Source: a virus. Taken from it: a stretch of 24,731 nucleotides of DNA. Below, piece by piece: positions 556 to 12,739 of the stretch. The translations under genes and the position numbers were made by a program. The notes beneath the pieces are model-generated. The model made no database searches. It was not told the DNA's origin and worked only from the letters and a program-made list of their open reading frames with translations. The stretch is from positions 1 to 24,731 of IMG/VR virus record IMGVR_UViG_3300042861_002536; one strand, written 5' to 3'. Each line of letters opens with the position of its first letter. Within the stretch, counting starts at the first letter, position 1.

Positions 556-645
556 ATTTGAGCAGCGGCGCCGCGGTGTTTTTCGCAATTTTTTTGGGTG
601 ATGGCGAGGTTTATAGATGAGTGCAGTGGGGCCGCGGTCTTTTTC
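556..645 (-). promoter_or_regulatory. Promoter module 1: two GAAAAA-N17 elements
   Basis: Read on the minus strand, two elements follow each other: 645-617 (GAAAAA, 17 bp, ACTCAT) and 584-556 (GAAAAA, 17 bp, TCAAAT). Both have CTGC immediately before the second box. After the proximal element comes a short GTGG/CCAC hairpin and then the ribosome binding site of the 50-aa gene. The distal copy is the most diverged of its type (ACTCAT instead of ACTTAT). The promoter role is inferred from position, since it lies just after a terminator and just before the first gene of a cassette, and from recurrence in eight other modules. Confidence 0.7.
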
Positions 646-665
646 CTTGCTTTTTCAAAAATTGA

Positions 666-683
666 CCGGCCAGGAACGGCCGG
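666..683. repeat. Inverted repeat CCGGCC/GGCCGG upstream of module 1
   Basis: A 6-bp perfect inverted repeat (666-671 with 678-683) lies between the terminator of the previous unit and the distal promoter element. The same position in the other modules holds an inverted repeat of different sequence but similar size. No T-run follows on either strand, so it is not a canonical terminator. Confidence 0.6.
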
Positions 684-704
684 GACAAAACCGCGTCCGC
701 GGAA

Positions 705-744
705 GAAAAACAAAAAAGGGCGAGGGGCTTTCGCCCCCCGCCCC
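705..744 (-). terminator. Intrinsic terminator of the 775-3976 gene group
   Basis: On the minus strand a GC-rich stem (GGGCGGGGGGC with GCCCCTCGCCC) closed by a GAAA-type loop is followed by TTTTTTG and a further T-rich run. It sits 30 bases after the stop of the gene ending at 775. The same hairpin and tail recur after each cassette in the left part of the window. Confidence 0.85.
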
Positions 745-774
745 TTACTTTTAGTTGTGCTGCCCTGCGACGCG

Positions 775-1056
775 TTAGAAGTCGAGCGGCCAGTGCGCCG
801 ACATGAGATTGAAGACATGATACTCAAGCTTGCGAACAAGGTCCGCGGTGAATGGCACCGCTTCCCTGTCGACGAACTCTTGTGCTGCGAACTCGAAAGG
901 ACCAAAGTCCGTTCGGCCAGCGGTTAATCGAACGCTGACCGTTAGTTGGTCGTGCTCGAAATTTCCCACTGCGTGGATACTCCACGACCTTCCCGCCATA
1001 GTGAGAGTAGACATGAGATCGGGAAAGTCTTTTGTGCTGATGGCGTTCATATTCAT
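775..1056 (-). CDS. Hypothetical early protein, 93 aa
   Basis: This is an unrecognised globular protein without membrane segments, with a central alternating hydrophobic stretch (QLTVSVRLTAG) suggesting beta strands. Its ATG overlaps the stop of the preceding gene in an ATGA arrangement, pointing to translational coupling. A second ATG two codons later is an equally possible start, because only a weak GGA is available for either. It is the last gene before the terminator at 705-744, so it ends the long 3976-to-775 gene string. Confidence 0.75.
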   Translation of the reverse strand: MNMNAISTKDFPDLMSTLTMAGRSWSIHAVGNFEHDQLTVSVRLTAGRTDFGPFEFAAQEFVDREAVPFTADLVRKLEYHVFNLMSAHWPLDF

Positions 1057-1244
1057 TCCATTGAGTCCTTTAGAATCTGCTCTGCCTCAGCGGCAGTAAA
1101 GGTGGCGGTCCAGTTCCCCCACCCTTGGGCCTGCTCGACGCCGAGCATAAAAGCCCCTCTCTCGCTCTCCGTGTCGAACTCGTAACGTGTGATGCTTTCG
1201 GGACGCTCGCCCCAGAGAACAAACAGGCTCGACTTATGGCTCAT
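1053..1244 (-). CDS. Hypothetical early protein, 63 aa
   Basis: This small protein is of unknown function. The start is the ATG behind GAGGAGGACTGTG; a longer in-frame extension has no ribosome site and would run through the upstream gene. The C-terminal part (residues about 30-60, FMLGVEQAQGWGNWTATFTAAEAEQIL) looks like a small alpha/beta unit ending in a helix. The gene overlaps its upstream neighbour by 11 bases and its downstream neighbour by 4, a tight polycistronic arrangement. Confidence 0.75.
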   Translation of the reverse strand: MSHKSSLFVLWGERPESITRYEFDTESERGAFMLGVEQAQGWGNWTATFTAAEAEQILKDSME

Positions 1245-1458
1245 CACAGTCCTCCTCTTCGCACAGGGCGATACGATACTCATCCGGCCCATTGTCTTCC
1301 ATATCACCCATCTTAACCGCGAAAGCGATGTCCTTCAAATGCTCATCTAATGCCTCCTGCGCCTCGAGGCGGGTGGCAAAGGTCTCCTTCTCCTCTCCGT
1401 CTTCCACTGTCCAGACGTTTTCCCACTGTTGCCCGATAAGTAACTGAACTTCCCACAT
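1234..1458 (-). CDS. Hypothetical early protein, 74 aa
   Basis: Acidic small protein, not recognised. Its N-terminal half has a short beta-hairpin-like pattern (WEVQLLIGQQWENVWTVEDG) and then a helical segment rich in Glu and Ala (TRLEAQEALDEHLKDIAF), a layout seen in many phage proteins of the type 'peptide with a single ALDE/ALE helix'. The tail is very acidic with two cysteines. The start ATG has AAGGAGG at ideal distance, which overrules the longer frame. Confidence 0.75.
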   Translation of the reverse strand: MWEVQLLIGQQWENVWTVEDGEEKETFATRLEAQEALDEHLKDIAFAVKMGDMEDNGPDEYRIALCEEEDCDEP

Positions 1459-1469
1459 GCGACACCTCC

Positions 1470-1697
1470 TTACTCTTTGGTTTTGATGCTGATGACCTTC
1501 CGTCCGTGTTCCGCTAGGAACATTGTGATTGCTATCATGTCCGTTGGAACGATGTAGTCCCGACTGCATCCAAGAGCGATGCCTCCGCGGCAGTACCGCG
1601 ACGTTTGGTCGCGGCCTTCTGTTACGACAGATACTTCGTGTATTGCCCCACCCTCTTGTGGGTGAGTCGACTCAACTTCCCACTTACGCTCAGTCAT
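1470..1697 (-). CDS. Hypothetical early protein, 75 aa
   Basis: Unrecognised small protein with mixed charge, two cysteines (residues about 36 and 44) and no membrane segment. The ATG is preceded by GAGGG. Spacing to both neighbours is only about 10 bases, so it is one member of the same polycistronic string. Codon use and base composition match the flanking genes. The gene call rests on the ribosome site and operon packing; no function is suggested. Confidence 0.72.
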   Translation of the reverse strand: MTERKWEVESTHPQEGGAIHEVSVVTEGRDQTSRYCRGGIALGCSRDYIVPTDMIAITMFLAEHGRKVISIKTKE

Positions 1698-1706
1698 TTA
1701 TTTCCC

Positions 1707-1994
1707 TCAGGAACTATAGTCGTAATAGTGACGCCTAACACCGATCGACAGACCGACACCATTAGACTTCCAACCGTTCTTGGTCTTACGGAACACATGC
1801 TTTGCTCCATTAGGATCAGGCTCATATGAATAAGTCTGCGACTCACTCATGCCGTTCGTGTCCGTCCTGATGGCCTTGTCCTCCTGCACGGTAACGGTGC
1901 AACGAGTCACCTTGAGGATCGTACCCGCACGTCGATCACTCCACATGTAAATCGTAGCGCCATCACCAACCTTCGGCTCCGCCTGATCAGTCAT
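1707..1994 (-). CDS. Small phage protein, 95 aa, conserved family of unknown function
   Basis: The protein begins with a beta-rich region containing GDGATIYMWSDRRAGTI and ends with a motif of the form F.K..NGW.S...GLSIGVRRHYYDYS. From memory this pattern occurs in small hypothetical proteins of many phages and plasmids, where it is annotated only as a domain of unknown function; I cannot verify that here. The start was set at the ATG behind AGGAGGAAG, giving a 4-base overlap with the upstream stop. It is cytoplasmic by sequence. Confidence 0.78.
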   Translation of the reverse strand: MTDQAEPKVGDGATIYMWSDRRAGTILKVTRCTVTVQEDKAIRTDTNGMSESQTYSYEPDPNGAKHVFRKTKNGWKSNGVGLSIGVRRHYYDYSS

Positions 1995-2293
1995 TCTACT
2001 TCCTCCTGAACTAAGACCCATGCCTGCACCCATGTTCCCACGTCGATTTTGTCAATAGACGGAGAATCGTCAACCTGAATGTTCTCACACTCATAGAGTT
2101 CGCGAGCCTGGCGGACCAGTTCCGCCCCTGCTCGATGATCATAATCGAGTGCTGTTCTGGCTCTACTTATGGCCAACATTAGCTTGCCGTGGGTGCAAGT
2201 GTTGTCACACACTTGGCCACAGTTACATGCTGTGAACTGGTTATCCGCGATTTCCTCGGCGACAGCCAATAGCCCCTGTAATTCTTGAGACAT
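1991..2293 (-). CDS. Hypothetical early protein with Cys/His cluster, 100 aa
   Basis: Helical N terminus (LQGLLAVAEEIADN) followed by a tight cluster CNCGQVCDNTCTHGK, four cysteines and one histidine within 14 residues, and then a second helix and an acidic tail. Such a cluster could bind one zinc ion or form disulfides; which is not decided by the sequence. The start ATG follows AAGGAGGGAG. The ribosome site abuts the paired repeats at 2305-2357. Family not recognised. Confidence 0.76.
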   Translation of the reverse strand: MSQELQGLLAVAEEIADNQFTACNCGQVCDNTCTHGKLMLAISRARTALDYDHRAGAELVRQARELYECENIQVDDSPSIDKIDVGTWVQAWVLVQEEVE

Positions 2294-2304
2294 AGCTCCC
2301 TCCT

Positions 2305-2357
2305 TGTGTCGCCGCGGAAGACACATACTACTTCATGTGTCGCCGCGGAAGACATGT
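2305..2357 (-). repeat. Two direct copies of a 19-bp palindromic unit, 31 bp apart
   Basis: The 19-base unit TGTGTCGCCGCGGAAGACA occurs at 2305-2323 and again at 2336-2354. Each copy can form a small hairpin (GTGTC with GACAC around a CCGCGG-containing loop). The two lie between the stop at 2368 and the start at 2293, immediately 5' of the ribosome site of the 100-aa gene. They could be protein-binding sites, mRNA processing hairpins or a local duplication. Confidence 0.75.
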
Positions 2358-2367
2358 GCTGGAAATA

Positions 2368-2625
2368 TCAAACCTTAGCAACGCTACCGGTCCAGATCTC
2401 CCCTAATTCACTAAATTTTCTGAGAGACACCACGTATTTGCTGGGGGGATACTTGAATCTTGTCACAATATTGATGTTTTTCATCTCGCTGCGGAGTTTA
2501 GCCGCAGATACGATTTGATCTGCCTGCTCGCGGTTCGAGCATTCTACCACGTACTTGTTGATCTTGCCCTCAGATCCTCCCCACCCGGACATAAACTTAT
2601 CCGTCATGGTTACAAAAATAGCCAT
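2368..2625 (-). CDS. Hypothetical early protein, 85 aa
   Basis: Not recognised. Begins MAIFVTMTDKFMSGWGG and contains a central helix (SNREQADQIVSAAKLRSEM) followed by a beta segment, reminiscent of a small alpha/beta fold such as a ferredoxin-like unit, although that is only a pattern guess. The start lies behind GAGGAGGG; upstream in-frame sequence is the intergenic hairpin at 2648-2669 and is not coding. Basic overall. Confidence 0.76.
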   Translation of the reverse strand: MAIFVTMTDKFMSGWGGSEGKINKYVVECSNREQADQIVSAAKLRSEMKNINIVTRFKYPPSKYVVSLRKFSELGEIWTGSVAKV

Positions 2626-2647
2626 TGCAGTCCCTCCTCTTTCCACC

Positions 2648-2669
2648 GGGAGGGGTGTCCGCCCCTCCC
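2648..2669. repeat. Intergenic 8-bp hairpin, first copy
   Basis: GGGAGGGG (2648-2655) pairs perfectly with CCCCTCCC (2662-2669) around a 6-base loop. The whole hairpin recurs identically at 2973-2994. It is placed between a stop codon and the next ribosome site and lacks a T-run, so mRNA processing or separation of translation units is more likely than termination. Confidence 0.7.
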
Positions 2670-2682
2670 CTCGTCCACACAA

Positions 2683-2943
2683 TCACTTTCCTTTGTGAAA
2701 ATGACTAAACGTCAACGCATTAGACCTAACATCAATCAGCATTTTAGCCCCAATAAATGATCGAAAATCATCACTATCATCACAGTCACAATACATATGT
2801 GCTGTGGCTTCGACCGTAACCAATCCTCCTTCCGTGTCTGGACTCCAATACAAAACCCGCACCGGCGTTCCCTTGGGGATGAAATCGCCACCGGAGGTCA
2901 AATGTTGTTCATCAAGCGTGCAAAACATTTGGTTATTACTCAT
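2683..2943 (-). CDS. Hypothetical early protein, 86 aa
   Basis: Unrecognised. The sequence is beta-strand-like (TPVRVLYWSP, GGLVTVEATAHMYC) with an acidic CDCDDSDDF segment near residue 55, followed by a helix. Three cysteines and several histidines are present but without a standard metal-site spacing. The start ATG is preceded by AAGGAGTAG. Hairpins of identical sequence flank the gene on both sides, an unusual symmetry within this operon. Confidence 0.77.
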   Translation of the reverse strand: MSNNQMFCTLDEQHLTSGGDFIPKGTPVRVLYWSPDTEGGLVTVEATAHMYCDCDDSDDFRSFIGAKMLIDVRSNALTFSHFHKGK

Positions 2944-2972
2944 CTCACTACTCCTTCAATTACGTCAAAACC

Positions 2973-2994
2973 GGGAGGGGTGTCCGCCCCTCCC
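2973..2994. repeat. Intergenic 8-bp hairpin, second copy
   Basis: Identical to the hairpin at 2648-2669: GGGAGGGG (2973-2980) with CCCCTCCC (2987-2994). It lies between the stop at 3007 and the ribosome site for the gene starting at 2943. No T-run follows on the minus strand. Confidence 0.7.
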
Positions 2995-3006
2995 TTACCG
3001 ATCCCA

Positions 3007-3240
3007 TTAGGGCCATTGCGAGATCTGACTCGCTTCGACGCCCTTCAGTTCAGCGATCTGCTTGCGGAGACGCTGTAGTCTCCTTTCCAAGTCGTCGATC
3101 ATGGCGATTGAAACTCTTCCTGTCGACGCCAGCCACAGCTTGTACGCGTCCAACTCTGACACCCCGTCATAGCAGGAAGGCAACGTCGCCTCTTCGACAG
3201 ATTCTGGAATGTCTATGCCTAGTACTCGGCGCATCTTCAT
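3007..3240 (-). CDS. Hypothetical early protein with C-terminal coiled coil, 77 aa
   Basis: The N-terminal half (RRVLGIDIPESVEEA) is unrecognised. The C-terminal half, IDDLERRLQRLRKQIAELKG, has leucine/isoleucine heptad spacing typical of a short coiled coil, so oligomerisation is plausible. The ATG at 3240 overlaps the upstream stop as ATGA; a second in-frame ATG two codons on has better spacing from GGAGG and is an alternative start. Either way it is coupled to the preceding gene. Confidence 0.75.
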   Translation of the reverse strand: MKMRRVLGIDIPESVEEATLPSCYDGVSELDAYKLWLASTGRVSIAMIDDLERRLQRLRKQIAELKGVEASQISQWP

Positions 3241-3449
3241 CGTCCTCCAGCGGCCAGAGACCTCAACAACCAATCGTCTTCCTTGCCCCGCTCTCTGGCG
3301 TTAATCAGGTCAGATCCGGACCGTAGCCATGCTGCCCCTTGGTGCAGTCCCTCTGCGATCTCAAGGGCGTCGTCGAGGCATTCCGCTTCGACCGTAACCA
3401 ATGCCATGGCTGGCGTTATCTTCATCAACACGACATCGAACTTTTTCAT
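3237..3449 (-). CDS. Small protein resembling the DpnD/PcfM type, 70 aa
   Basis: The first 40 residues follow the pattern strand - V.VEAE..DDALEIAE - helix (KKFDVVLMKITPAMALVTVEA then the helix). This resembles short phage and plasmid proteins grouped as DpnD/PcfM-like, whose role is unclear. The assignment is from pattern memory and weak. The start is the ATG behind AGGAGGCTTGGAA. The 136-aa protein at 6189-6599 has a similar opening. Confidence 0.72.
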   Translation of the reverse strand: MKKFDVVLMKITPAMALVTVEAECLDDALEIAEGLHQGAAWLRSGSDLINARERGKEDDWLLRSLAAGGR

Positions 3450-3485
3450 TTCCAAGCCTCCTGGGTTAGCGCAACATAAGGATGA

Positions 3486-3722
3486 TTATCGGACGTTGAC
3501 TTCCACTCGATGACCGTAACACGGCGGTTCATATGTGCCGTCTAACAGCCAGTATCCGATCAGTAGGATATCGGTGTCGACCAAGGAACCATAGTGGTCA
3601 ATGTATTCGTTCACGTCGACGCGGCTAATGTTGAGGTAGTCCCAGCCCGTGTGGTCGACAACCCGTCCTGTCTCGTCGAATCTGATCATCCCACAACTGC
3701 CCGACGCTGTAAACGTCTTCAT
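3486..3722 (-). CDS. Hypothetical early protein, 78 aa
   Basis: Unrecognised small acidic protein. It has a hydrophobic patch DTDILLIGYWLLDG near the middle, too short and too charged at its edges for a confident transmembrane helix, and ends EPPCYGHRVEVNVR. The ATG is preceded by AAAGGAG and overlaps the upstream stop as ATGA, indicating coupling with the 85-aa gene. Two cysteines, no obvious metal site. Confidence 0.77.
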   Translation of the reverse strand: MKTFTASGSCGMIRFDETGRVVDHTGWDYLNISRVDVNEYIDHYGSLVDTDILLIGYWLLDGTYEPPCYGHRVEVNVR

Positions 3723-3976
3723 ACGGTCTCCTTTTCTTGTTCCCTGACTGCGTCCATAACTTGCTCGAAGTAAGAACCTTTTGCGTCGATGACGCCACTA
3801 AGCACGTTCTCCATCCTGCCCCGCTCGGCCGGATCAGAGATAGACAACACTAGTGGGCGGCTCAGAAACACGCCGTCGTCGGACTCTTTTCTATAGGCGA
3901 TTTCGCTTGCGACCCACATCATACGCACACCTCCTCGCTTGAAACTGCTCTCAATGATGACCGTACCCTGACCCAT
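3719..3976 (-). CDS. Hypothetical early protein, 85 aa
   Basis: Unrecognised. It opens with beta-like segments (GTVIIESSFKRGGVRMMWVASEIAY) and ends with a charged helix. The start ATG follows AAGGAGG. It is the first gene downstream of the terminator at 3994-4028, with only the ribosome site between the T-run and the start codon. No promoter fits in that gap, so expression probably depends on read-through from the GP88-like gene. Confidence 0.76.
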   Translation of the reverse strand: MGQGTVIIESSFKRGGVRMMWVASEIAYRKESDDGVFLSRPLVLSISDPAERGRMENVLSGVIDAKGSYFEQVMDAVREQEKETV

Positions 3977-3993
3977 GTGAGACCTCCTTAGAT

Positions 3994-4028
3994 AAAAAAG
4001 CCGACCCGGGACTCGCGTCCCGGATCGG
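3994..4028 (-). terminator. 12-bp intrinsic terminator or attenuator inside an operon
   Basis: On the minus strand, bases 4028-4017 pair with 4012-4001 over 12 positions (one G-T pair) around a GCGA loop, and the stem is followed by CTTTTTT. A second hairpin (GTCCCC 4061-4066 with GGGGAC 4076-4081) lies just upstream, after the stop at 4097. The next ribosome site starts within about 4 bases of the T-run, so this terminator separates two genes of one apparent operon. Confidence 0.85.
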
Positions 4029-4096
4029 TTGTGCGGGTTGGTTAGGCCCGCCCCGCGGAAGTCCCCTGCGAAACCGGGGACAGCCGCGGTTTACGA

Positions 4097-5002
4097 TTAG
4101 TGGATGCCGTTGGCGATGACGACACCCTTGAACCGCATGTCCCCACAAGCGTGGGTCCATGCCCCGTCCTTACCTTTCACGCACTCTCCGCACTTGCCTG
4201 GGCAGGAGAAAACTTTGGTATGCCCCAAAGCACGGGCCGCTTCGCGGACATGGTCGTGGTACTCCCGATTGTCGTATCGGGCACCACGCATCGAGATGAA
4301 CCGTTGAGGCACCGACACTGCGATATACTCGCCGCGGACCATCGGGAGGGTCAGCATAGTCGCCTTGGACACCTGCCGTTCCCGCCCCCCGCCGGACAGA
4401 TTGAGGACATAGTTGTCGGGCACTTTCTCGTGCCCCACCAACTCGTCCCAACTCTTGCTGTACCCATAGGCCTGTATGTCAGACCTTAGACGCAGAAGCT
4501 TGAACCAGAATGCAACGTCACTACGACTGCTGAAGTCGCCGTCAACGTAAAGACGCATCGTGATGTCCTTCGGGAGATCAAAGAACGCGTCTGCCACCAC
4601 TTCCGGCATAAACCGGAGTAGGATCGTATTCTGAACCTGCCTCCAGAAGGCACTTGCGTGCCTCCATCCGGTCAAGGTGTAACACCAAGACGCACATTCC
4701 CCCTTCCCGGGACATGTGAACAGACTGAGCGTTGACCATGTGAAGAATGGTAACTTAGTGTTCCCCTTCGGGATGAAGAGCGTGAACGGGACGCCTCGTT
4801 CCCCTCGGAGGAAAGACAATATCTTCTCGCCCTCCTGCCTCCAGGTGAATCCCGCCCCTTCCGCGGGCAGATCTGCTAGCGCCCGCTCGATCCCAATCGT
4901 TACCTTAGCCAACCCCTCAGTGCTCGCCAACTTAGCGAGCCTGAGAGCTTTCTCCCGTCCGAATACAACATCCGCCTTACGATTGCGTGTCTGCGTCGTC
5001 AT
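4097..5002 (-). CDS. GP88-family cysteine-rich phage protein, 301 aa
   Basis: The layout matches what I know of the GP88 family (named after a mycobacteriophage gene product): a CPGKGECASWCY motif at residues 97-108, RLYVDGDFSSR at about 150-160 (family pattern RLHVSGDF), a YGYSK segment, NLSGGG, and a C-terminal block with CPGKCGEC at 267-274 and a further Cys at 286, ending near a final histidine. The seven conserved cysteines suggest a metal or Fe-S site, but the family's biochemical activity is not established. The start follows GGGTG at the end of a CA-repeat leader. It is the first and largest gene downstream of promoter module 2. A 93-aa frame inside it on the same strand is a shadow. 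Confidence 0.85.
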   Translation of the reverse strand: MTTQTRNRKADVVFGREKALRLAKLASTEGLAKVTIGIERALADLPAEGAGFTWRQEGEKILSFLRGERGVPFTLFIPKGNTKLPFFTWSTLSLFTCPGKGECASWCYTLTGWRHASAFWRQVQNTILLRFMPEVVADAFFDLPKDITMRLYVDGDFSSRSDVAFWFKLLRLRSDIQAYGYSKSWDELVGHEKVPDNYVLNLSGGGRERQVSKATMLTLPMVRGEYIAVSVPQRFISMRGARYDNREYHDHVREAARALGHTKVFSCPGKCGECVKGKDGAWTHACGDMRFKGVVIANGIH

Positions 5003-5007
5003 GTGTC

Positions 5008-5050
5008 ACCCGTGTGTGTGTGTGTCAGGAAGCGTTTTCCGCCTCTCACT
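5008..5050 (-). promoter_or_regulatory. 5' leader of the GP88-like gene: hairpin plus CA repeat
   Basis: From the proximal promoter element the minus strand reads AGTGAGA, then a 6-bp hairpin (GAGGCG with CGCTTC, positions 5045-5029, one G-T pair), then a run of CA dinucleotides (about 5026-5011), then the ribosome site. The same order, with different hairpin sequence, precedes the first gene of the other cassettes. Confidence 0.6.
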
Positions 5051-5274
5051 ATTTGAGCAGCGGCGGCGAGGTGTTTTTCTAGAATTTTTCGAGGTTCACA
5101 CGATAGCCAAGATAAGTGCAGCAGGGCAGCCATCTTTTTCGCTTGCTTTTCCAAATTTTCAACCCGCCCAGTGCGGGTAGTACGCGCGCGCCGCGCCGCA
5201 CGATACGCGCCGCGGCGCGAGATGCGTGCGCATAAGCGCCACTATATAAGTGCAGCGGCGCCGACATGTTTTTC
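5051..5274 (-). promoter_or_regulatory. Promoter module 2: three GAAAAA-N17 elements
   Basis: On the minus strand the elements are 5274-5246 (ACTTAT), 5140-5112 (ACTTAT) and 5079-5051 (TCAAAT). Each has GAAAAA 17 bp upstream of the hexamer and CTGC directly before it. Between the first and second lies a GC-rich tract with a 14-bp perfect palindrome (5206-5219) and an ACCCGC/GCGGGT inverted repeat (5162-5178). Together they would drive the GP88-like gene. Confidence 0.7.
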
Positions 5275-5480
5275 CGCGGTTTTCGGTCAAGACAAGACCT
5301 GGGCGACCGGCCTTGTGTGGCTGTGACGCCACCAAGGACCAAGGGGGCTGGCGCCCCCTACTTATCAACCCCTACGGGGCGATGCGGACCAGGCTTTCGC
5401 CCGGTCCGAGAATCAAGAACGCGCCCCGCGGGCGCCCCAAAGGGCGAGGATTACCCCCGCCCCTACTGCTAATACCATCA
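5275..5480. other. Non-coding GC-rich stretch with hairpins
   Basis: No gene is supported. It holds an AGGGGGC/GCCCCCT hairpin near 5345, an imperfect GGACC/GGTCC stem near 5390-5415, and on the minus strand a degenerate copy of the usual cassette terminator (GGGCGGGG...CCTCGCCC followed by only TTT, around 5440-5462). The standard T7-G-T6 tail is missing, so the gene group ending at 5481 may terminate less cleanly than the others. Confidence 0.5.
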
Positions 5481-5693
5481 TCACTCCGCACTCTCCTTTC
5501 GGCATTGCTCGAGGTACTCTTCGGGGAGATTATCCTCGTACTGCCGGATGATGCGCTCGACGTCTTCGTCCGTCTCAGCGTCGTTGAGTTCGTCGTCCAA
5601 CTGATCCCCCTCTTCGCCTTGAACGAAGAGGGTCGCGCCCTTCGGAAAGCGCAATAAAATACCCACTCCCTGCCACTCGTACGAGTAACTCAT
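5481..5693 (-). CDS. Acidic hypothetical protein, 70 aa
   Basis: Unrecognised. A short beta-rich N terminus (WQGVGILLRFPKGATLFVQG) is followed by a strongly acidic helical region (DDELNDAETDEDVERII). The net charge is highly negative, as in some phage DNA-mimic or inhibitor proteins, but that is only a charge argument. The ATG follows GAGGAGGG and overlaps the upstream stop (ATGA). It is the last gene of its group. Confidence 0.77.
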   Translation of the reverse strand: MSYSYEWQGVGILLRFPKGATLFVQGEEGDQLDDELNDAETDEDVERIIRQYEDNLPEEYLEQCRKESAE

Positions 5694-6901: not shown

Positions 6902-6990
6902 ATTTGAGCAGCGGCGGCGAGATGTTTTTCGGGAATTTTTCGGCTGAAATAATTTGAGCCGATAAGTGCAGCGGGGCGCCCAGCTTTTTC
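6902..6990 (-). promoter_or_regulatory. Promoter module 3: two GAAAAA-N17 elements
   Basis: Minus-strand elements at 6990-6962 (ACTTAT) and 6930-6902 (TCAAAT), both with the 17-bp spacer and CTGC before the hexamer. Upstream lies the CCGGCC/GGCCGG inverted repeat (7013-7030). Downstream the leader carries a minimal GGC/GCC hairpin (6894-6882) and a CA-rich stretch before the ribosome site of the 72-aa gene. Confidence 0.72.
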
Positions 6991-7048: not shown

Positions 7049-7090
7049 AAAAAACAAAAAAAGGGGCGAGGGGCTTTCGCCCCCCGCCCC
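7049..7090 (-). terminator. Intrinsic terminator of cassette 4
   Basis: On the minus strand the stem GGGGCGGGGGGC/GCCCCTCGCCCC with a GAAA-type loop is followed by T7-G-T6. It stands 26 bases after the stop at 7116. Between stop and stem lies an ACCGG/CCGGT inverted repeat with CA/GT runs (7091-7114) that recurs at the ends of the cassettes at 8548-8573 and 9749-9773. Confidence 0.87.
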
Positions 7091-7115
7091 CACACACACC
7101 GGCCACACACCGGTA

Positions 7116-7443: not shown

Positions 7444-7746
7444 TCAATCCCCCTCGACAACAGTAGATGACATAACGCCATCGGCCAATTCGTACCACCC
7501 CACAGTGTCAAACGCTCCCCTCATGAGGTCATGCCACGGCTGTGGCAGTTCGGGGAAGTCGTCCTCAGCCTGTTCCTTCATCGCCTTGCCCAAGGCGATA
7601 GTCGCCTCTTCCCTGCGGCTGAGGGACAGGGTCCCTCGGCTTGAGTTATAAAGTTCCTGGGCAGATTCCCCCCAGCTTTCGCTGAGGTAGAGGTTCATTG
7701 CCCATGTCGCGTGGTTCTTCCACCCATTGTAATTGCAATCAGACAT
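7444..7746 (-). CDS. GWxNxxTW-motif phage protein, 100 aa (DUF7249-like)
   Basis: Residues about 6-20 read NGWKNHATWAMNLYLS. The pattern NGW.N..TW...LWL is a hallmark of a widespread family of short phage and plasmid proteins of unknown function, which I recall as DUF7249. The remainder is helical and acidic. The start is the ATG behind GAGG, overlapping the end of the 191-aa gene by 8 bases. The family assignment is from motif memory, so moderate. Confidence 0.8.
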   Translation of the reverse strand: MSDCNYNGWKNHATWAMNLYLSESWGESAQELYNSSRGTLSLSRREEATIALGKAMKEQAEDDFPELPQPWHDLMRGAFDTVGWYELADGVMSSTVVEGD

Positions 7747-8314
7747 TTGACACCTCGTAAGTGAAACCCATCTTCTCGACCAATACTGCTTCGATCTCTT
7801 GTTCGTTCGGACCACGATGCTCGTGGTACGAGAGAGAAAGTATTCCTATGACCTGCAAGACGGTCTCATCCGTCGGCGTCTCATTAAACTTTTGTCGTGC
7901 TAGCCTAAGAACAACCTCCGAAACCTCGTTCCAGAGGGCATCAGACTCGGCAGCACTGTACAGATCCTCGTCGAGGATCGGGTGGTCCTCCGCTCGATCG
8001 CAGAGCGATTCCCATGCCTGAAACGCTTTTGTTATTTGACCATGCTCATCGTAGACTTTGATGGCCCAGCCTTTTACCCAACCACAGGCGAAGTGGTTGT
8101 GATCCTCGGGGACAGCGTCTTCACCATGCGTGGCCATCTCTTTATCTATCACCTGTGCATTTACCCGATTCAGAAGGGAAGAGTCCCGGTTGTGGGTGTA
8201 GACGAGCGTCCACACCCCCTCCCTTGGTTCTGACCAAGAGAAAGCCTCCCATTTTCGCCAGTTATCCGCCATCGACGCGGCACGCGCCTTAAGCTTCTCC
8301 ATGTCCATGTCCAT
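7739..8314 (-). CDS. Conserved phage protein of unknown function, 191 aa
   Basis: Contains NHFACGWVKGWAIKVYDEHG (residues about 73-92) followed by a helix with the segment HPILDEDLYSAAE (about 112-124). From memory the combination 'H(W/F)A.GWV ... (D/H)YP(V/I)LDE..YS' marks a common phage family with no known role. The start is one of three ATGs in a row behind CGGAG; the second (8308) has better spacing. It is the first gene behind promoter module 4 and overlaps the next gene. Confidence 0.82.
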   Translation of the reverse strand: MDMDMEKLKARAASMADNWRKWEAFSWSEPREGVWTLVYTHNRDSSLLNRVNAQVIDKEMATHGEDAVPEDHNHFACGWVKGWAIKVYDEHGQITKAFQAWESLCDRAEDHPILDEDLYSAAESDALWNEVSEVVLRLARQKFNETPTDETVLQVIGILSLSYHEHRGPNEQEIEAVLVEKMGFTYEVSNV

Positions 8315-8356
8315 GTGCTCCGTGTGTGTGTCTGAGAGGCATCGTTGCTTCCCACT

Positions 8357-8446
8357 ATTTGAGCAGCGCCAGCAATAGGTTTTTCGAGATTTTTTTGGGC
8401 TTCCGTTGAAGTCTAGGATAAGTGCAGCGGGGCGGCCAGCTTTTTC
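8357..8446 (-). promoter_or_regulatory. Promoter module 4: two GAAAAA-N17 elements
   Basis: Elements at 8446-8418 (ACTTAT) and 8385-8357 (TCAAAT) on the minus strand, both with 17-bp spacers and CTGC before the hexamer. The CCGGCC/GGCCGG inverted repeat is at 8469-8486. The leader has an imperfect 7-bp hairpin (8352-8331) and a CA run before the ribosome site of the 191-aa gene. Confidence 0.72.
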
Positions 8447-8504
8447 GCTTGCTTTTCCAAATTTTCGACCGGCCTAAAACGGCCGGGACAGCCGCGGCCG
8501 CGGA

Positions 8505-8547
8505 AGAAAAAACAAAAAAAGGGCGAGGGGCTTTCGCCCCCCGCCCC
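8505..8547 (-). terminator. Intrinsic terminator of cassette 5
   Basis: The same stem-loop as at 7049-7090 with a T7-G-T6 tail on the minus strand. Upstream of it, after the stop at 8612, is a 9-bp hairpin without T-run (GGGGGCGGG 8578-8586 with CCCGCCCCC 8594-8602) and the ACCGG/CCGGT element. Confidence 0.87.
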
Positions 8548-8611
8548 CACACACACCGGCCACACACCGGTATCACAGGGGGCGGGCACTACACCCGCCC
8601 CCGCCCCTAGG

Positions 8612-8908
8612 TCAAATGCCCAGTCCGTTCTTGATCCCCAACTCTTGACACATCGACATAACCTCCTTGGGTAGGTCGAACACGCCATCGTAGTCTACGA
8701 GTTCCCCACCTTCGACGATCAGGCCGATCTCTGCGTGGTGGTTATTACCACCGGTTTTCGTATCATAGACTTCGGCGCAGACGGGAATACCGTCGTGGCA
8801 ATACAGATCGACTGTCACGCCTTTCGACCTTGAGGTGAGATCGACGCCGTTCGCGTCGATCATCCCGATCGTGCTGGATGCAAACTCACGCGTGATCGTA
8901 TTCTTCAC
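8612..8908 (-). CDS. Hypothetical early protein, 98 aa (GTG start)
   Basis: Unrecognised, with beta-rich segments (KGVTVDLYCHDGIPVCAEVYDT) in the middle and a short C-terminal helix. The start codon is GTG, overlapping the upstream stop as GTGA and preceded by AGGGGAC, which suggests re-initiation by ribosomes finishing the 104-aa gene. Two cysteines flank the central strand region. It is the last gene of its cassette. Confidence 0.76.
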   Translation of the reverse strand: MKNTITREFASSTIGMIDANGVDLTSRSKGVTVDLYCHDGIPVCAEVYDTKTGGNNHHAEIGLIVEGGELVDYDGVFDLPKEVMSMCQELGIKNGLGI

Positions 8909-9219
8909 TTGACTGTCCCCTGAAAGACGCCGGAGTTCTTCCGGCCGAATATTACCCTGAACTCAACCCATCTCTCGTCGCCGTCCTCGGCGAAGGTGAC
9001 GAACCCGCTTACCCTCTTTCCCCCGACCACCACCGACGCCGGGATGGAGAAGAAAGTATCGGCCGTGATGGCCAACCTCACTGCCCGGGCTTTTCCGTCC
9101 GGGCAGATGGCCTTGCCACGGACGAAACACCCCCATGGATTCCTCGTTATGACGTAGGTGCCCCTGTCGTACTCCCGTCGTTCCATACCACACCCAACCT
9201 GAACATTGTTCATTTTCAT
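8905..9219 (-). CDS. Hypothetical early protein, 104 aa
   Basis: Unrecognised and beta-rich. Its sequence alternates short strands with glycines (GTYVITRNPWGCFVRGKAICPDGKARAVRLAI, written here only as a guide to residues about 20-52), resembling a small beta-barrel. It is basic overall and could bind nucleic acid, but no motif proves it. The ATG lies behind GGGAGGTGAG, which also holds the upstream gene's TGA, so the two are coupled. Confidence 0.76.
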   Translation of the reverse strand: MKMNNVQVGCGMERREYDRGTYVITRNPWGCFVRGKAICPDGKARAVRLAITADTFFSIPASVVVGGKRVSGFVTFAEDGDERWVEFRVIFGRKNSGVFQGTVK

Positions 9220-9222
9220 GAC

Positions 9223-9504
9223 TCACCTCCCACAGGACGCATAAGCGTCCTGAACTTGTTCCAACAGATCCTTTGCCGTTTGCCTGAGGTCCTTGACCAT
9301 GGACGAGGCCGTCACCGACCCCGCCCCCCAGAACCCACGATGGTCCTGATCATAGTCCGATAATCCGCTACGGAGCGCCCACGCCCCGTCTGAGTACACC
9401 TGGAGTCGGACATCCATGTCCTCCCCCGGATCCACGTACTTGCGTGCCTCCTCGCGGGCCTCCTTGAGCGCCCATGTTACACTTGCGATACTTGGGAATC
9501 TCAT
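9223..9504 (-). CDS. Conserved small phage protein, 93 aa
   Basis: The protein has an N-terminal helix, then DVRLQVYSDGAWALRSGLSD (about 32-51), DHRGFWG (about 55-61) and a C-terminal amphipathic helix. The pattern 'VRLQV..DG.W..R.G...YD.DHRG.WG' is familiar from short proteins of phages and plasmids, unnamed in function. The start is the ATG behind CGGAG at the end of a CA-repeat leader; a longer frame would turn that leader into an artificial His-Thr repeat. Confidence 0.8.
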   Translation of the reverse strand: MRFPSIASVTWALKEAREEARKYVDPGEDMDVRLQVYSDGAWALRSGLSDYDQDHRGFWGAGSVTASSMVKDLRQTAKDLLEQVQDAYASCGR

Positions 9505-9556
9505 ATGCGCACTCCGTGTGTGTGTGTGTGTGTGGGAGGCATTGTCGCCTCTCACT

Positions 9557-9646
9557 ATTTGAGCAGCGGCAGCCAGAGGTTTTTCAAGAATTTTTTCGGT
9601 GTCTGCTGAAGCTTAAGATAAGTGCAGCGGGATGGCCACCTTTTTC
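9557..9646 (-). promoter_or_regulatory. Promoter module 5: two GAAAAA-N17 elements
   Basis: Elements at 9646-9618 (ACTTAT) and 9585-9557 (TCAAAT), spacers 17 bp, CTGC before the hexamer. Inverted repeat CCGGCC/GGCCGG at 9669-9686. The leader hairpin is GAGGC/GCCTC (9551-9536), then about 18 bases of CA repeat, then the ribosome site for the 93-aa gene. Confidence 0.72.
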
Positions 9647-9704
9647 GCTTGCTTTTCCAAATTTTCGACCGGCCTAAAACGGCCGGGACAGCCGCGGCCG
9701 CGGA

Positions 9705-9748
9705 AGAAAAAACAAAAAAAGGGCGAGGGGCTTTCGCCCCCCGCCCCT
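9705..9748 (-). terminator. Intrinsic terminator of cassette 6
   Basis: The same stem and T7-G-T6 tail as the terminators at 7049-7090 and 8505-8547. It lies about 30 bases after the stop at 9777, with the ACCGG/CCGGT element (9756-9773) between. The roughly 120 bases 9660-9773 are almost identical to 8460-8573. Confidence 0.87.
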
Positions 9749-9776
9749 CACACACACCGGCCACACACCGGTACGG

Positions 9777-10169
9777 TTAATAGCTCCAGTTGTTGATGTC
9801 CACCACTTTCTCACCCGGCGCCGACCGGGAGGTCTCGGGAGTGGCGTTGAACGCCACGGCGTTCGGATAATGCTCCCGGATGTTCTGCTCGCGAAGAGCC
9901 GTCAACATCGGGAAGGGGACCAGCACAATATCCACCTGCTCGCAGAGGGCCTTCAGCCGGGCCTGCGCGAGTTCGGACAAGACCATGGACACCTTGTACA
10001 GAGACATGCCCTTGATGTCCCCCACCAGGGTCTGCTCACGCCTCAGCGTGAACAAATCGCAGAACTCTCGCTGCTGTGGACCGCACTCGGTCCCGTCCGA
10101 AAAGCGGAAACCGTGAGAGGGACTCAGGCTCATGAGCCTGGCCCCGTTCGCCAACACATGAATGAACAT
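9777..10169 (-). CDS. Hypothetical early protein, 130 aa
   Basis: Unrecognised soluble protein with alternating helices and strands (LYKVSMVLSELAQARLKALCEQVDIVLV around residues 57-84). There is no signal or membrane segment. The ATG follows GAGGAGAGG. A CCCC-TTCG-GGGG tetraloop hairpin and the T-run of the terminator at 10208-10239 lie within 45 bases upstream, leaving no room for a promoter. Its expression therefore seems to depend on read-through of that terminator. Confidence 0.78.
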   Translation of the reverse strand: MFIHVLANGARLMSLSPSHGFRFSDGTECGPQQREFCDLFTLRREQTLVGDIKGMSLYKVSMVLSELAQARLKALCEQVDIVLVPFPMLTALREQNIREHYPNAVAFNATPETSRSAPGEKVVDINNWSY

Positions 10170-10207
10170 AGGCCTCTCCTCTGTCGTCGCCCCCGAAGGG
10201 GAAGTCT

Positions 10208-10239
10208 AAAAAAAGGGGGCGGACACCATGCCCGCCCCC
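10208..10239 (-). terminator. Intrinsic terminator/attenuator between 82-aa and 130-aa genes
   Basis: On the minus strand CCGCCCCC-type arms (10239-10232 and 10222-10215) enclose a small loop and are followed by TTTTTTT. The hairpin arms and loop are repeated at 11230-11254, there without the T-run. It follows the stop at 10260 by about 20 bases and precedes a gene lacking its own promoter. Confidence 0.8.
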
Positions 10240-10259
10240 CGTCCTCACCGACTAGACTT

Positions 10260-10508
10260 TTATACTTTCACCCCCAGAATCGCGCTTTCTACCAGGTAAT
10301 ACGCCGACATCACAATCATCTCATGCGTGGACCCGCCATCTAGGCGGTCCTCTGCTAGTACTTCCCACCCCTCGGGGGCGGGTTCTTCCGTTGATTCCAC
10401 TATATAGCCTCGAGGGCTGCTTATGAGTCTTACCCCGATGCCTCCGTCGTGGTTCGCCAATATGGCGGCTATCGCACAAGCGATAACCCGTGGATTGAGA
10501 GCGTTCAT
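10260..10508 (-). CDS. Hypothetical early protein, 82 aa
   Basis: Unrecognised. The N-terminal helix is hydrophobic (VIACAIAAILANHDGG, residues about 7-22) but short and followed directly by charged residues, so membrane insertion is doubtful. A beta segment GVRLISSPRGYIVEST follows, then a C-terminal helix. The start is the ATG behind AGGAGG; the longer frame only reads the CA leader as His-Thr repeats. It is the first gene behind promoter module 6. Confidence 0.77.
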   Translation of the reverse strand: MNALNPRVIACAIAAILANHDGGIGVRLISSPRGYIVESTEEPAPEGWEVLAEDRLDGGSTHEMIVMSAYYLVESAILGVKV

Positions 10509-10588
10509 GCGCGTCCTCCTGTGAGCGCCAGCACTTGCGCTGGGCGTGTGTGTGTGTGTGTGTGGGTGCCACATTTGCACCCCTCACT

Positions 10589-10844
10589 ATTTGAGCAGCG
10601 GGATCGAGAACTTTTTCACGATTTTTTTCGAGGTTTTGAGAAGGCTAGATAAGTGCAGCGAGATACCCATCTTTTTCGCTTGCTTTTCCAAATTTTCAAC
10701 CCGCTATGCGCGGCTGGTACACGCGGGCGCCGCGGAGGCGGTAAGATCGCCAACACAATAGTGCAGCGGCAAGGATAACTTTTTCACGATTTTTTTCGAG
10801 GTTTTGAAGGTTTAGATAAGTGCAGCAGGATCATCGCCTTTTTC
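10589..10844 (-). promoter_or_regulatory. Promoter module 6: four GAAAAA-N17 elements
   Basis: Elements at 10844-10816 (ACTTAT), 10785-10757 (ACTATT), 10677-10649 (ACTTAT) and 10617-10589 (TCAAAT), all with 17-bp spacers and CTGC before the hexamer. The block looks like a duplication of the two-element module, with a GC-rich spacer (10700-10750) that is nearly repeated in module 8. Leader hairpin GGGTGC/GCACCC at 10582-10564, then a CA run. Confidence 0.72.
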
Positions 10845-10865
10845 GCTTGCTTTTCCAAAATTTCG

Positions 10866-10885
10866 ACCGGCTATGCGCGGCCGGT
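10866..10885. repeat. Inverted repeat ACCGGC/GCCGGT upstream of module 6
   Basis: The inverted repeat (10866-10871 with 10880-10885) occupies the position of CCGGCC/GGCCGG in modules 1 and 3-5. The arm sequence is changed but pairing is kept. Copies with the same arms are at 11820-11839 and 12374-12393. Confidence 0.6.
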
Positions 10886-10905
10886 ACAGCCGCGGCCGGC
10901 AGAAG

Positions 10906-10947
10906 AAAAACAAAAAAAGGGCGAGAGGCCTTTCGGCCCCCCGCCCC
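10906..10947 (-). terminator. Intrinsic terminator of cassette 7
   Basis: Stem GGGGCGGGGGGCC with GGCCTCTCGCCC around a GAAA-type loop, followed on the minus strand by T7-G-T5. The outer loop-closing bases differ from the other copies (GGCC for GGGC) while pairing is retained. It stands a few bases after the stop at 10954. Confidence 0.86.
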
Positions 10948-10953
10948 TATCTG

Positions 10954-11202
10954 TCAGTCGCCGAGGTTCAGGAACTCCCGTCCCTGCTTGTATATCACCT
11001 TGGTAACCAGGACCAGATGGTGCTCACACCCGTCTGGGTGCTTATTGTACTCCCTTGCCTTGTCCATCAAGGCTCTCTCGAGAGCCTTGATGGGGGTCTT
11101 CCCCCACCCTATCCCCGTGTAGGGGCGGGCTGAGTCCCGGAACGATCGCGGGTAATGCCAAGGATCACAGTAGTGATCCGTTACTTCTGCCATGTACAAC
11201 AT
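10954..11202 (-). CDS. Hypothetical early protein, 82 aa
   Basis: Unrecognised. It contains the motif TGIGWGKTPIKALERALMDKAREY (helix after a glycine-rich turn, residues about 29-52), which in small phage proteins usually represents a single amphipathic helix; it is not a Walker A motif. The neighbour at 11267-11635 carries a similar GVGWGK segment, a curious shared feature. The ATG follows GAGGG. The hairpin at 11230-11254 precedes it. Confidence 0.76.
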   Translation of the reverse strand: MLYMAEVTDHYCDPWHYPRSFRDSARPYTGIGWGKTPIKALERALMDKAREYNKHPDGCEHHLVLVTKVIYKQGREFLNLGD

Positions 11203-11229
11203 AGTAATCCCTCAAACATGTCCCGAACA

Positions 11230-11254
11230 GGGGGCGGACACCATGCCCGCCCCC
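11230..11254. repeat. Intergenic hairpin, same sequence as terminator at 10208-10239
   Basis: GGGGGCGG (11230-11237) pairs with CCGCCCCC (11247-11254). The 25-base core matches the hairpin at 10215-10239, but no T-run follows here. It separates the stop at 11267 from the next ribosome site, so it may be a processing hairpin or a weakened terminator. Confidence 0.65.
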
Positions 11255-11266
11255 TTCTGTCGTCGC

Positions 11267-11635
11267 CTAGTAGATCTCCCATGCGACCATGGGAGCGCCA
11301 CGTTCGTGCCCCTCCATGATATCCCAAATCTGCCGACTATACTTGGCAAGGCGGTTCCTAGCTATCGTCAGTTGCTTTTCTGAGAGGGGCGACTTGTACC
11401 GCCTCTTGGCCGGGGGCGTCCCGCCCCACTGGAGCACCTGCTGGACGAAGGATGTCATGAGTGGGGCATCAACCTTGCCCCATCCCACCCCGTTCTCCAC
11501 GCCCGCCTGCTTGGCGGATTTTTCCGAGTCGGTTTGCCGCATGTAAAGCTCTAAGAGCATCGAGACGAGGAACGAGCGATCCTCCTGCATGCGCTCGGTG
11601 ATCAACTCTTTCACTGCGTCCTGTGTGCGTGCCAT
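11267..11635 (-). CDS. Hypothetical early protein, 122 aa
   Basis: Unrecognised, helical and basic. Residues 1-45 form a long charged helix (DAVKELITERMQEDRSFLVSMLLELY). A central part contains GVGWGK, and a lysine/arginine-rich segment PAKRRYKSPLSEKQLTIARNRL follows, which could contact nucleic acid. The start is the ATG behind CGGAG; an upstream ATG at 11662 would add nine residues but has a poorer site. First gene behind promoter module 7. Confidence 0.77.
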   Translation of the reverse strand: MARTQDAVKELITERMQEDRSFLVSMLLELYMRQTDSEKSAKQAGVENGVGWGKVDAPLMTSFVQQVLQWGGTPPAKRRYKSPLSEKQLTIARNRLAKYSRQIWDIMEGHERGAPMVAWEIY

Positions 11636-11709
11636 GTGTGTTCTCCGTTCGTGGGCACTCATGTACCCGTGTGTGTGAGTGTGCAAGCGTTGTACTTGCA
11701 CTCCTCACT

Positions 11710-11798
11710 ATTTGAGCAGCGGGAAGGATAACTTTTTCACGATTTTTTTCGAGGTTTTTGAAGGTTTAGATAAGTGCAGCAGGATGGCCTGCTTTTTC
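11710..11798 (-). promoter_or_regulatory. Promoter module 7: two GAAAAA-N17 elements
   Basis: Elements at 11798-11770 (ACTTAT) and 11738-11710 (TCAAAT), both with 17-bp spacers and CTGC. The inverted repeat ACCGGC/GCCGGT is at 11820-11839. The leader hairpin is GTGCAAG/CTTGCAC (11701-11681), followed by CA-rich sequence. Confidence 0.72.
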
Positions 11799-11860
11799 GC
11801 TTGCTTTTCCAAAATTTCGACCGGCTATGCGCGGCCGGTACAGCCGCGGCCGGTAGAAGA

Positions 11861-11901
11861 AAAACAAAAAAAGGGCGAGGGGCCTTTCGGCCCCCCGCCC
11901 C
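11861..11901 (-). terminator. Intrinsic terminator of cassette 8
   Basis: Stem GGGGCGGGGGGCC with GGCCCCTCGCCC and a GAAA-type loop, then T7-G-T5 on the minus strand. A second 7-bp hairpin (AGTCAGC 11905-11911 with GCTGACT 11921-11927) overlaps the stop codon at 11926. Confidence 0.87.
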
Positions 11902-11925
11902 AAGAGTCAGCAAGGCGCTCGCTGA

Positions 11926-12189
11926 CTATGCCCTTATCATCCATGCGGCCGCGTTCGTGGCCTCCTCAGGACAGTTCCCTTCCCAGAGCCAGAAGGTCTC
12001 CTTGCGCCTGTGATTGAATGGTATGGGGCACTCCGCCCCCGCGTCACAGACCACCTCCCAGAGGCCGCCCCCATAGATACGCAGCTTTATCACCGTGATC
12101 TCTCCCTCGGGTAGCTCGAGTGAGAGAATCGCGTCGCGGACTTCGGGCACGGATAGCTTCCGGTCAATGGCAATGAAAGCGTTGCTCAT
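11926..12189 (-). CDS. Hypothetical early protein, 87 aa
   Basis: Unrecognised small protein. It starts MSNAFIAIDRKLSVPEVRDAI, continues with a beta segment (EITVIKLRIYGGGLWEVVC) and has a Cys/His-containing C-terminal half (CDAGAEC, NHRRKETFW, NCPEE) without a regular zinc-finger spacing. The start is the ATG behind GGGGAC. It is the only gene between promoter module 8 and the terminator at 11861-11901, a one-gene cassette. Confidence 0.77.
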   Translation of the reverse strand: MSNAFIAIDRKLSVPEVRDAILSLELPEGEITVIKLRIYGGGLWEVVCDAGAECPIPFNHRRKETFWLWEGNCPEEATNAAAWMIRA

Positions 12190-12263
12190 AATGTGTCCCC
12201 ATGCGTGGGCACTCAAGTGCCCGTGTGTGTGAGTGTGTGAGCGTTGTACTCACACTCCTCACT

Positions 12264-12509
12264 ATTTGAGCAGCGGCAGAAAGCACTTTTTCACGATTTT
12301 TTTCGAGGTTTTGAGAAGGTTAGATAAGTGCAGCAGGATGATCGTCTTTTTCGCTTGCTTTTCCAAAATTTCGACCGGCTATGCGCGGCCGGTACACGCG
12401 GGCGCCGCGGGCGCCAGTAAGATCGCCAACATAATAGTGCAGCAGCAAAGATAACTTTTTCGAGGTTTTTGAGGGTTTAGATAAGTGCAGCGGCATGATC
12501 GTCTTTTTC
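12264..12509 (-). promoter_or_regulatory. Promoter module 8: four GAAAAA-N17 elements
   Basis: Elements at 12509-12481 (ACTTAT), 12461-12433 (ACTATT), 12352-12324 (ACTTAT) and 12292-12264 (TCAAAT), all with 17-bp spacers and CTGC. The layout and the GC-rich spacer (12390-12430) closely match module 6, except that the two distal elements are only about 48 bp apart. Leader hairpin GTGTGAG/CTCACAC (12255-12235). Confidence 0.72.
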
Positions 12510-12570
12510 GCTTGCTTTTCCAAAATTTCAACCGGCCCAGAGCGGCCGGGACAACCGCGGCCGGTAGAAG

Positions 12571-12610
12571 AAAAACAAAAAAAGGGCGAGAGGCTTTCGC
12601 CCCCCGCCCT
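12571..12610 (-). terminator. Intrinsic terminator of the gene-less cassette
   Basis: Stem GGGCGGGGGGC with GCCTCTCGCCC around a GAAA-type loop, then T7-G-T5 on the minus strand. It follows promoter module 9 by only about 40 bases. An inverted repeat CCGGCC/GGCCGG (12532-12549) lies beyond, ahead of module 8. Confidence 0.86.
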
Positions 12611-12644
12611 GATATGTGAGTGTGCGAGCGTTGCATTCGCACCT
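12571..12644 (-). ncRNA. Putative short RNA from a gene-less cassette, about 70 nt
   Basis: Between the proximal element of module 9 and the terminator there is no ribosome site or convincing open frame. There is only the leader hairpin GTGCGA/TCGCAC (12642-12622), a short linker and the terminator stem. If the promoter works, the product is a two-hairpin RNA of about 70 nt. It could equally be a remnant of a cassette that lost its gene. Confidence 0.45.
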
Positions 12645-12650
12645 CTCATA

Positions 12651-12739
12651 ATTTGAGCAGCAGCAACAGGCACTTTTTCACGATTTTTTCGGGAGTTTTT
12701 GAGAAGCTTAATATGTGCAGCAGGATGAGCCTGTTTTTC
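12651..12739 (-). promoter_or_regulatory. Promoter module 9: two GAAAAA-N17 elements
   Basis: Elements at 12739-12711 (ACATAT, a variant hexamer) and 12679-12651 (TCAAAT), both with 17-bp spacers and CTGC. The inverted repeat upstream is the longest of the set: ACCGGCCC (12769-12776) with GGGCCGGT (12781-12788). Confidence 0.7.

Follow-up and report, generated by a model that had tools for sequence, protein, structure and literature searches.

A two-box intergenic element with fixed spacing and an exchanged upstream box in a phage family: candidate promoters of a non-housekeeping polymerase

Which factor reads a short two-box element that recurs between the small genes of a viral genome fragment? 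The 24.7-kb fragment IMGVR_UViG_3300042861_002536 (24,731 nt, the whole of which is called the window here) has small genes filling about 14 kb of its minus strand, and 23 copies of a 29-bp element occupy the gaps between the likely genes on that strand. A comparison of related phages lends good support to reading the elements as promoters. We estimate a probability of roughly 0.6 that they serve as promoters for an RNA polymerase holoenzyme of the non-housekeeping kind, in which the phage would supply the specificity factor, most likely a sigma.

The element and its two classes

A pattern scan of the window with GAAAAA-N13-CTGC-WCWWAT found 23 copies at 556-12739. All of them lie on the minus strand, where they form nine groups of 2, 3, 2, 2, 2, 4, 2, 4, and 2 elements; the plus strand has none. 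The number, span, strand, and nine modules given in the first-pass annotation were all confirmed by the pattern and matrix scans. GAAAAA-N17-TCAAAT alone occurred nine times in the window and was absent from 100 dinucleotide shuffles, and GAAAAA-N13-CTGC-N5-T matched 23 times in reverse, with no forward match and none in the reversed-pattern control. A weight matrix derived from these 23 sequences scored them at 32-41 bits and every other position on either strand at most 8 bits, a separation of 24 bits between the elements and the rest of the window. When the distance from GAAAAA to CTGC (or AGGC) was varied from 6 to 21 bp, the 13-bp gap accounted for 23 cases and each other distance for at most 8. 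The rigid spacing with a free middle that had been described before was reproduced in this way, with 13 bp between GAAAAA and CTGC in 23/23 elements and variable positions between them. The invariant positions are 1-6, 20-23, 25 (C in 23/23), and 29. As also described, CTGC always directly precedes the hexamer and CGCTGC is usual, position 19 being G in 22/23 and position 18 being C in 16/23.

The first-pass annotation treated the copies as a single element with a varying hexamer, whereas we found two classes, E1 (CTGCAC..., n=14) and E2 (CTGCTCAAAT, n=9). E1 ends in CTGCAC(T/A)... and occurs in the forms CTGCACTTAT, ACATAT, ACTCAT, or ACTATT; E2 ends in CTGCTCAAAT followed by AGTG or TATG. 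They usually form an E1-E2 pair 60-61 bp apart, with E2 as the copy nearest the gene.

The boxes are unlike TTGACA/TATAAT, in line with the poor housekeeping match noted at first. GAAAAA agrees with TTGACA at 2/6 positions in 23/23 sites, position 2 of the second hexamer is C in 23/23 instead of the A of sigma-70, and a sigma-70 promoter scan of the window listed none of the 23 elements. The spacer contains no conserved GG as in the sigma-54 signature (GG about 11-12 bp before GC). The 13-base variable middle departs from the contiguous core of T7-type promoters, and the two boxes at fixed spacing, pointing towards the genes, show the bipartite layout of the 7-11 type. A coding origin of the elements was considered and rejected: open frames exist (e.g. 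...PLLK stop), yet spacer differences also occur outside third codon positions, and E1 and E2 stand either 60 or 61 bp apart. GAAAAA-N13-CTGCTCAAAT was also searched across IMG/VR, where 74 stretches matched, nearly all with a single match and most likely by chance; the matches are real only in L037, a near-identical strain.

Exchange of the upstream box among relatives

Searches with the capsid protein found 31 viral loci and six in bacterial genome bins. The major capsid protein (MCP) of G005, a genome of 149,106 bp whose first and last 127 bases are identical, is 95% identical to that of the window, and the MCP of G010 is 90% identical. G005 carries 27 elements of the form GAGYCAAAC-N10-CTGC, all at 127.8-147.2 kb on a single strand with none on the other, and G010 carries 24 of the form GAGACAAT-N11-(C/A)(T/G)GC. 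The first-pass annotation had named elements found equally often within genes and in both orientations across the genome as evidence against promoters; G005 does not show this, its elements being restricted to one 20-kb minus-strand region.

The E1/E2 arrangement is common to the window, G005, and G010, and in all three exactly 19 bp separate the start of the box from the CTGC/AGGC core. The box itself differs. Counts of GAAAAA, the G005-type box, and GAGACAAT were 23/0/0 in the window, 1/17/0 in G033, 2/27/0 in G005, 0/0/24 in G010, and 0/0/24 in G035, so that, one or two stray matches aside, each genome has just one of the three boxes. The E2 consensus is GAAAAA...ct.g.tgCCGCTGCTCAAATAGTGaG in the window, GAGCCAAACc.c.....AACTGCAATaAGGGTGa in G005, and GAGACAAT.T.g..c.GACAGGCACTCT...tGagg in G010, and a further E2 form, GAGACAAT...CTGCACAAGG, occurs in L150. 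E1 keeps CTGCAC in all three consensuses. The part that the family keeps is the CTGC core (AGGC in the E2 of one relative) rather than the hexamer TCAAAT/ACTTAT of the first-pass annotation, and the limits of the second box have been redrawn accordingly. A blind gapped word-pair search independently recovered GAAAA-14-CTGC, AGCCA-13-CTGC, and ACAAT-13-GCAC in the three lineages.

The exchange is observed at orthologous genes. Ahead of the GP88-like gene, whose protein products are 50% identical, the window has a GAAAAA element, G005 one with GAGCCAAAC, and G010 one with GAGACAAT. The box directly upstream of gene 7739-8314 differs between the window and G005, and that of the phrog_21015 gene differs between the window and both G010 and L150. 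Because the same genes are preceded by differing boxes, the element was replaced or converted in place with its spacing kept, and a wholesale box replacement of this kind fits a factor domain with changed specificity. The family has one two-box geometry, 23-27 sites per genome, at least three exclusive upstream boxes switched genome-wide at orthologous genes, and a nearly constant CTGC core. We tentatively suggest that these may be natural orthogonal promoter specificities, arising from change in one domain of a phage factor.

Two other observations concern the relatives. A T always precedes the element in G010 (L126/L127), and at 17549, 20397, 21341, and 23560 (+) of these loci an upstream open reading frame (ORF) of at least 58 codons, beginning with ATG, ends in frame at the TGA of TGAGACAAT, so that gene end and element overlap at the four sites. 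The capsid relatives L102 and L103 contain many CAAGG/CAGGG words with regular spacing in a tandem-repeat-like stretch.

Module anatomy, candidate factors, and competing explanations

On the minus strand, a typical module consists of an intrinsic terminator, a CCGG hairpin, an AT-rich stretch with AGCAAGC, E1, about 31 bp, E2, a stem-loop leader, a CACACA-rich stretch, and a start codon about 40-80 bases downstream (Table 1). The proposed placement of each block between a terminator and a gene holds for 8/9 modules, which have a strong intrinsic terminator just upstream; the 5051-5274 module has only a weak hairpin. The terminators imply that a restart signal is needed, and with a gene following, it should come from E2 or from the segment upstream of E1. 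This segment (CCGG hairpin, AT-rich stretch, and AGCAAGC) is conserved in most window modules and in the three relatives with elements, and is possibly a host-type promoter or operator. Solitary E2 copies precede genes in G010 and G005 without the segment, which favors E2 as the start signal. The leader stems begin at position 30-33 in 15/17 E2 copies of the window and G005 (mean z -2.4 over the 17), and in some copies the same stem is formed by differing sequences. The upstream segment of the head module, 12742-12860 (-), holds two TTGACA-N16-GAAAAT matches.

Table 1. Positions of the elements and accompanying features in the window
Feature	Position	Strand	Basis or comparison
E1 (ACATAT), head module	12711..12739	-	pattern, class comparison
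E2 (TCAAAT), head module	12651..12679	-	pattern, class comparison
E1	12481..12509	-	pattern, class comparison
E1-class (ACTATT), E2-like spacer, without leader stem	12433..12461	-	pattern, class comparison
E1	12324..12352	-	pattern, class comparison
E2	12264..12292	-	pattern, class comparison
E1	11770..11798	-	pattern, class comparison
E2 upstream of phrog_21015 gene (11267-11701)	11710..11738	-	G010 and L150 orthologues: GAGACAAT elements
E1	10816..10844	-	pattern, class comparison
E1-class (ACTATT)	10757..10785	-	pattern, class comparison
E1	10649..10677	-	pattern, class comparison
E2	10589..10617	-	pattern, class comparison
E1	9618..9646	-	pattern, class comparison
E2	9557..9585	-	pattern, class comparison
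E1	8418..8446	-	pattern, class comparison
E2 upstream of gene 7739-8314	8357..8385	-	G005 orthologue: GAGCCAAAC elements
E1	6962..6990	-	pattern, class comparison
E2	6902..6930	-	pattern, class comparison
E1, solitary extra copy	5246..5274	-	pattern, class comparison
E1	5112..5140	-	pattern, class comparison
E2 upstream of GP88-like gene	5051..5079	-	G005 and G010 orthologues: other two boxes
E1 (ACTCAT)	617..645	-	pattern, class comparison
E2	556..584	-	pattern, class comparison
Intrinsic terminator before module at 556	715..746	-	
Intrinsic terminator before module at 6902	7062..7091	-	
Intrinsic terminator before module at 8357	8519..8548	-	
Intrinsic terminator before module at 9557	9718..9749	-	
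Intrinsic terminator before module at 10589	10917..10948	-	
Intrinsic terminator before module at 11710	11872..11901	-	
Intrinsic terminator before module at 12264	12583..12610	-	
Leader stem-loop, starts 2 bases after E2	12229..12262	-	z -4.9
Leader stem-loop after E2, same stem as 12229-12262 from differing sequence	11675..11708	-	z -5.3
Leader stem-loop after head-module E2	12613..12650	-	z -3.4
Leader stem-loop after E2	9532..9555	-	z -4.9
Sigma-70-like TTGACA-N16-GAAAAT in conserved upstream segment (CCGG hairpin, then ATAGCAAGC), head module	12742..12769	-	sigma-70 scan
Sigma-like phage protein upstream of terminase, with Sigma70 region 2 and a three-helix C-terminal part; candidate factor with no link to elements	14640..15278	+	Pfam, model

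We infer that transcription starts at the elements, that a sigma factor reads them, and that the phage encodes this sigma. E2, and probably E1 too, would be promoters of the minus-strand genes, read by the phage-encoded sigma on the host core polymerase. Two domains at a fixed distance would make the contacts, one with positions 1-9 (the upstream box) and the other with about positions 18-29 (the CTGC core and its flanks), and the middle would not be read; reading at two points around a free middle is a typical trait of sigma-holoenzymes. The terminator would halt transcription of the preceding unit and the element would restart it, the new transcript opening with the stem-loop leader, which may protect its 5' end. 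In the relatives, the upstream box was replaced at all 24-27 sites with geometry and core kept, as would be expected if the domain reading that box had changed its specificity and selected for a matching change at every site.

The first-pass annotation had considered both an alternative or phage-modified sigma and a different polymerase. The misfit of the boxes to TTGACA/TATAAT and the wholesale change of the upstream box between close relatives argue for a non-housekeeping factor, as in the former; the latter found no support, as the large ORFs scanned in the 149-kb G005 included no recognisable RNA polymerase gene, several large ORFs there remaining unannotated. Sigma70 region 2 was found in the window protein 14640-15278 and in two G005 proteins. 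The model of 14640-15278 matched sigma region 2 with a Z of 8.6 over 72 residues (2.3 Å); a Z of 8 is little above chance for helical models, and the Pfam match to Sigma70 region 2 agrees. The second sigma-like protein, from G005 (109679-110197), has region 2 and a WhiG match across both domains (E 1.3e-4), and its predicted structure is too poor to use.

Several points weigh against a phage sigma reading E1 and E2. Neither sigma-like gene is linked to the elements. The terminase-adjacent sigma is conserved also in relatives that showed no elements, and its C-terminal part differs only moderately between phages with different boxes; together these suggest that a sigma of the 14640-15278 type is more likely a late factor. 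The second sigma, when searched in other contigs, was found in G005 only. The leader stem usually begins 2-4 bases past the hexamer TCAAAT, whereas known phage sigma promoters are reported to start transcription 6-9 bases downstream (PMC8948821). A start 6-8 bases past the hexamer would truncate the outer part of the stem, so the start may be nearer. Finally, the sigma-70-like TTGACA-N16-GAAAAT upstream of the head-module E1 means that E1/E2 could be a transcribed leader.

That last point belongs to a broader alternative, in which E1 and E2 are RNA processing or stability signals and transcripts begin upstream at the hairpin-ATAGCAAGC segment or read through from the previous gene. The TTGACA-N16-GAAAAT match just upstream of E1, the stem-loop coming after E2, and the many G010 E2 copies between genes without a terminator would suit such signals. 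We nevertheless consider them quite unlikely, given two short boxes around a free 13-base middle with no evident internal base pairing, many solitary E2 copies without the upstream segment, and the lack of any Rfam match; a box that changes at every site at a fixed distance fits two-point DNA recognition better. The position of the leader stem also implies a start near the core, a trait of T7-type promoters, and some starts in G005 and G010 are rich in G. The elements could then be promoters for an RNA polymerase of the phage itself, single-subunit or multisubunit, that starts directly after the core (CTGCAATTA|GGGTGAG, cf. T7 CACTATA|GGGAGA). This is very improbable, since the large ORFs scanned in G005 gave no polymerase match and T7-type promoters form one contiguous block and have no second box some 30 bp ahead of the start. 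A PF00940 search of G005 was empty, and its control gave no match either.

A host factor is the strongest competitor to the phage sigma, and we still regard it as unlikely. Here an extracytoplasmic function or other alternative sigma of a Planctomycete would read the elements, and each of the three boxes would stand for a different host. Alternative sigmas are numerous in Planctomycetes, and genes transcribed first upon infection require a host-recognised promoter. JAIEMG010000205.1 (L155, L162-L165), a contig of a Gemmataceae genome bin, encodes a capsid protein 70-72% identical to that of the window and a terminase of the phage family next to kinase-WD40, SNF2, and other chromosomal-type genes. 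A Planctomycete provirus would explain this arrangement, though a binning error is possible, and the phages of the family, which are uncultured, probably infect Planctomycetes; relatives were also found in bins of Chitinophagia, Flavobacteriales, SAR202, and others. However, phages 90-95% alike in capsid protein have exclusive boxes, and few copies of the elements turned up in 95 Gemmataceae genomes: GAGACAAT-N11-CTGCA gave 5 matches (two sharing one sequence) against 1 in the control, and GAAAAA-N13-CTGCWCWWAT gave 1 against 2. These genomes, which may not be those of true hosts, make no clear use of the elements, with matches near control level. The Gemmataceae contig itself has no elements, and the apparent gapped repeats there lie in coding sequence.

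Genomic surroundings and comparison with known systems

The plus strand of the window encodes the sigma-like protein, a D5-like regulator, an ERCC4-type nuclease, an intein-bearing terminase (large subunit, 16682-19552), and a portal, followed by a putative protease and a putative capsid protein, both named from position. An intein-like LAGLIDADG insert is also present in a RecA-like protein of G005. Most of the small minus-strand genes tested had no match in Pfam/PHROG, neither the capsid protein nor the module tested matched INPHARED phages, and the GP88-like gene used as a query in viral contigs turned up no relatives. A long ACC/GGT triplet run lies beside a CG-rich hairpin at 13200-13260, downstream of gene 13273-14349.

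What stands out in this system is that one box has been swapped at every site. The joint change of specificity in a regulator and its dozens of sites is a long-standing problem, usually illustrated by T7 and T3, related phages whose many promoters, contiguous 23-bp sequences, differ in concert with a single-subunit polymerase. The window family is similar in that many sites differ together between relatives, and dissimilar in that no single-subunit polymerase was recognised. With the switch frozen in close relatives and in a sigma-like two-box layout, which half changes is directly visible. Such a system would yield orthogonal promoter sets and would give a first look at gene control in phages probably infecting Planctomycetes, a phylum with few tools.

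The late promoters of Salmonella phage 7-11 (sigma SaPh711_gp47), GTAAtg-(16)-aCTA at eight sites upstream of late genes, are a proven case (PMC8948821). The window elements likewise have two short boxes at fixed spacing before phage genes, those of 7-11 being read by host polymerase with the phage sigma, and the window phage also encodes a sigma-family protein. Unlike 7-11, the window family has 23-27 sites in two classes, and they precede small genes divergent from the structural genes. The middle/late promoters of phiEco32 (sigma gp36) have a single box, tAATGTAtA, at six sites (PMC8948821, PMC4331800). Conserved intergenic motifs are common to phiEco32 and the window phage, and in phiEco32 they are phage-sigma promoters; the window elements differ in having an upstream box. 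Between 7-11 and phiEco32 the promoter consensus differs, and the sigmas are only 15% identical and independently acquired (PMC8948821), whereas the window family, with capsid proteins 90-95% identical, keeps the geometry and swaps one box. The start-associated sequences of Cluster K mycobacteriophages (11-19 copies, nearly all in one orientation, before a subset of small genes) are contiguous 13-bp GGGATAGGAGCCC sequences at the translation start with 17-bp inverted repeats, some with an extra upstream part (PMC3203893). The window elements resemble them in their many copies before small genes in a single orientation, and differ in sequence and geometry: there is no GGGATAGGAGCCC at the translation start, and the Cluster K sequences lack two boxes at fixed spacing.

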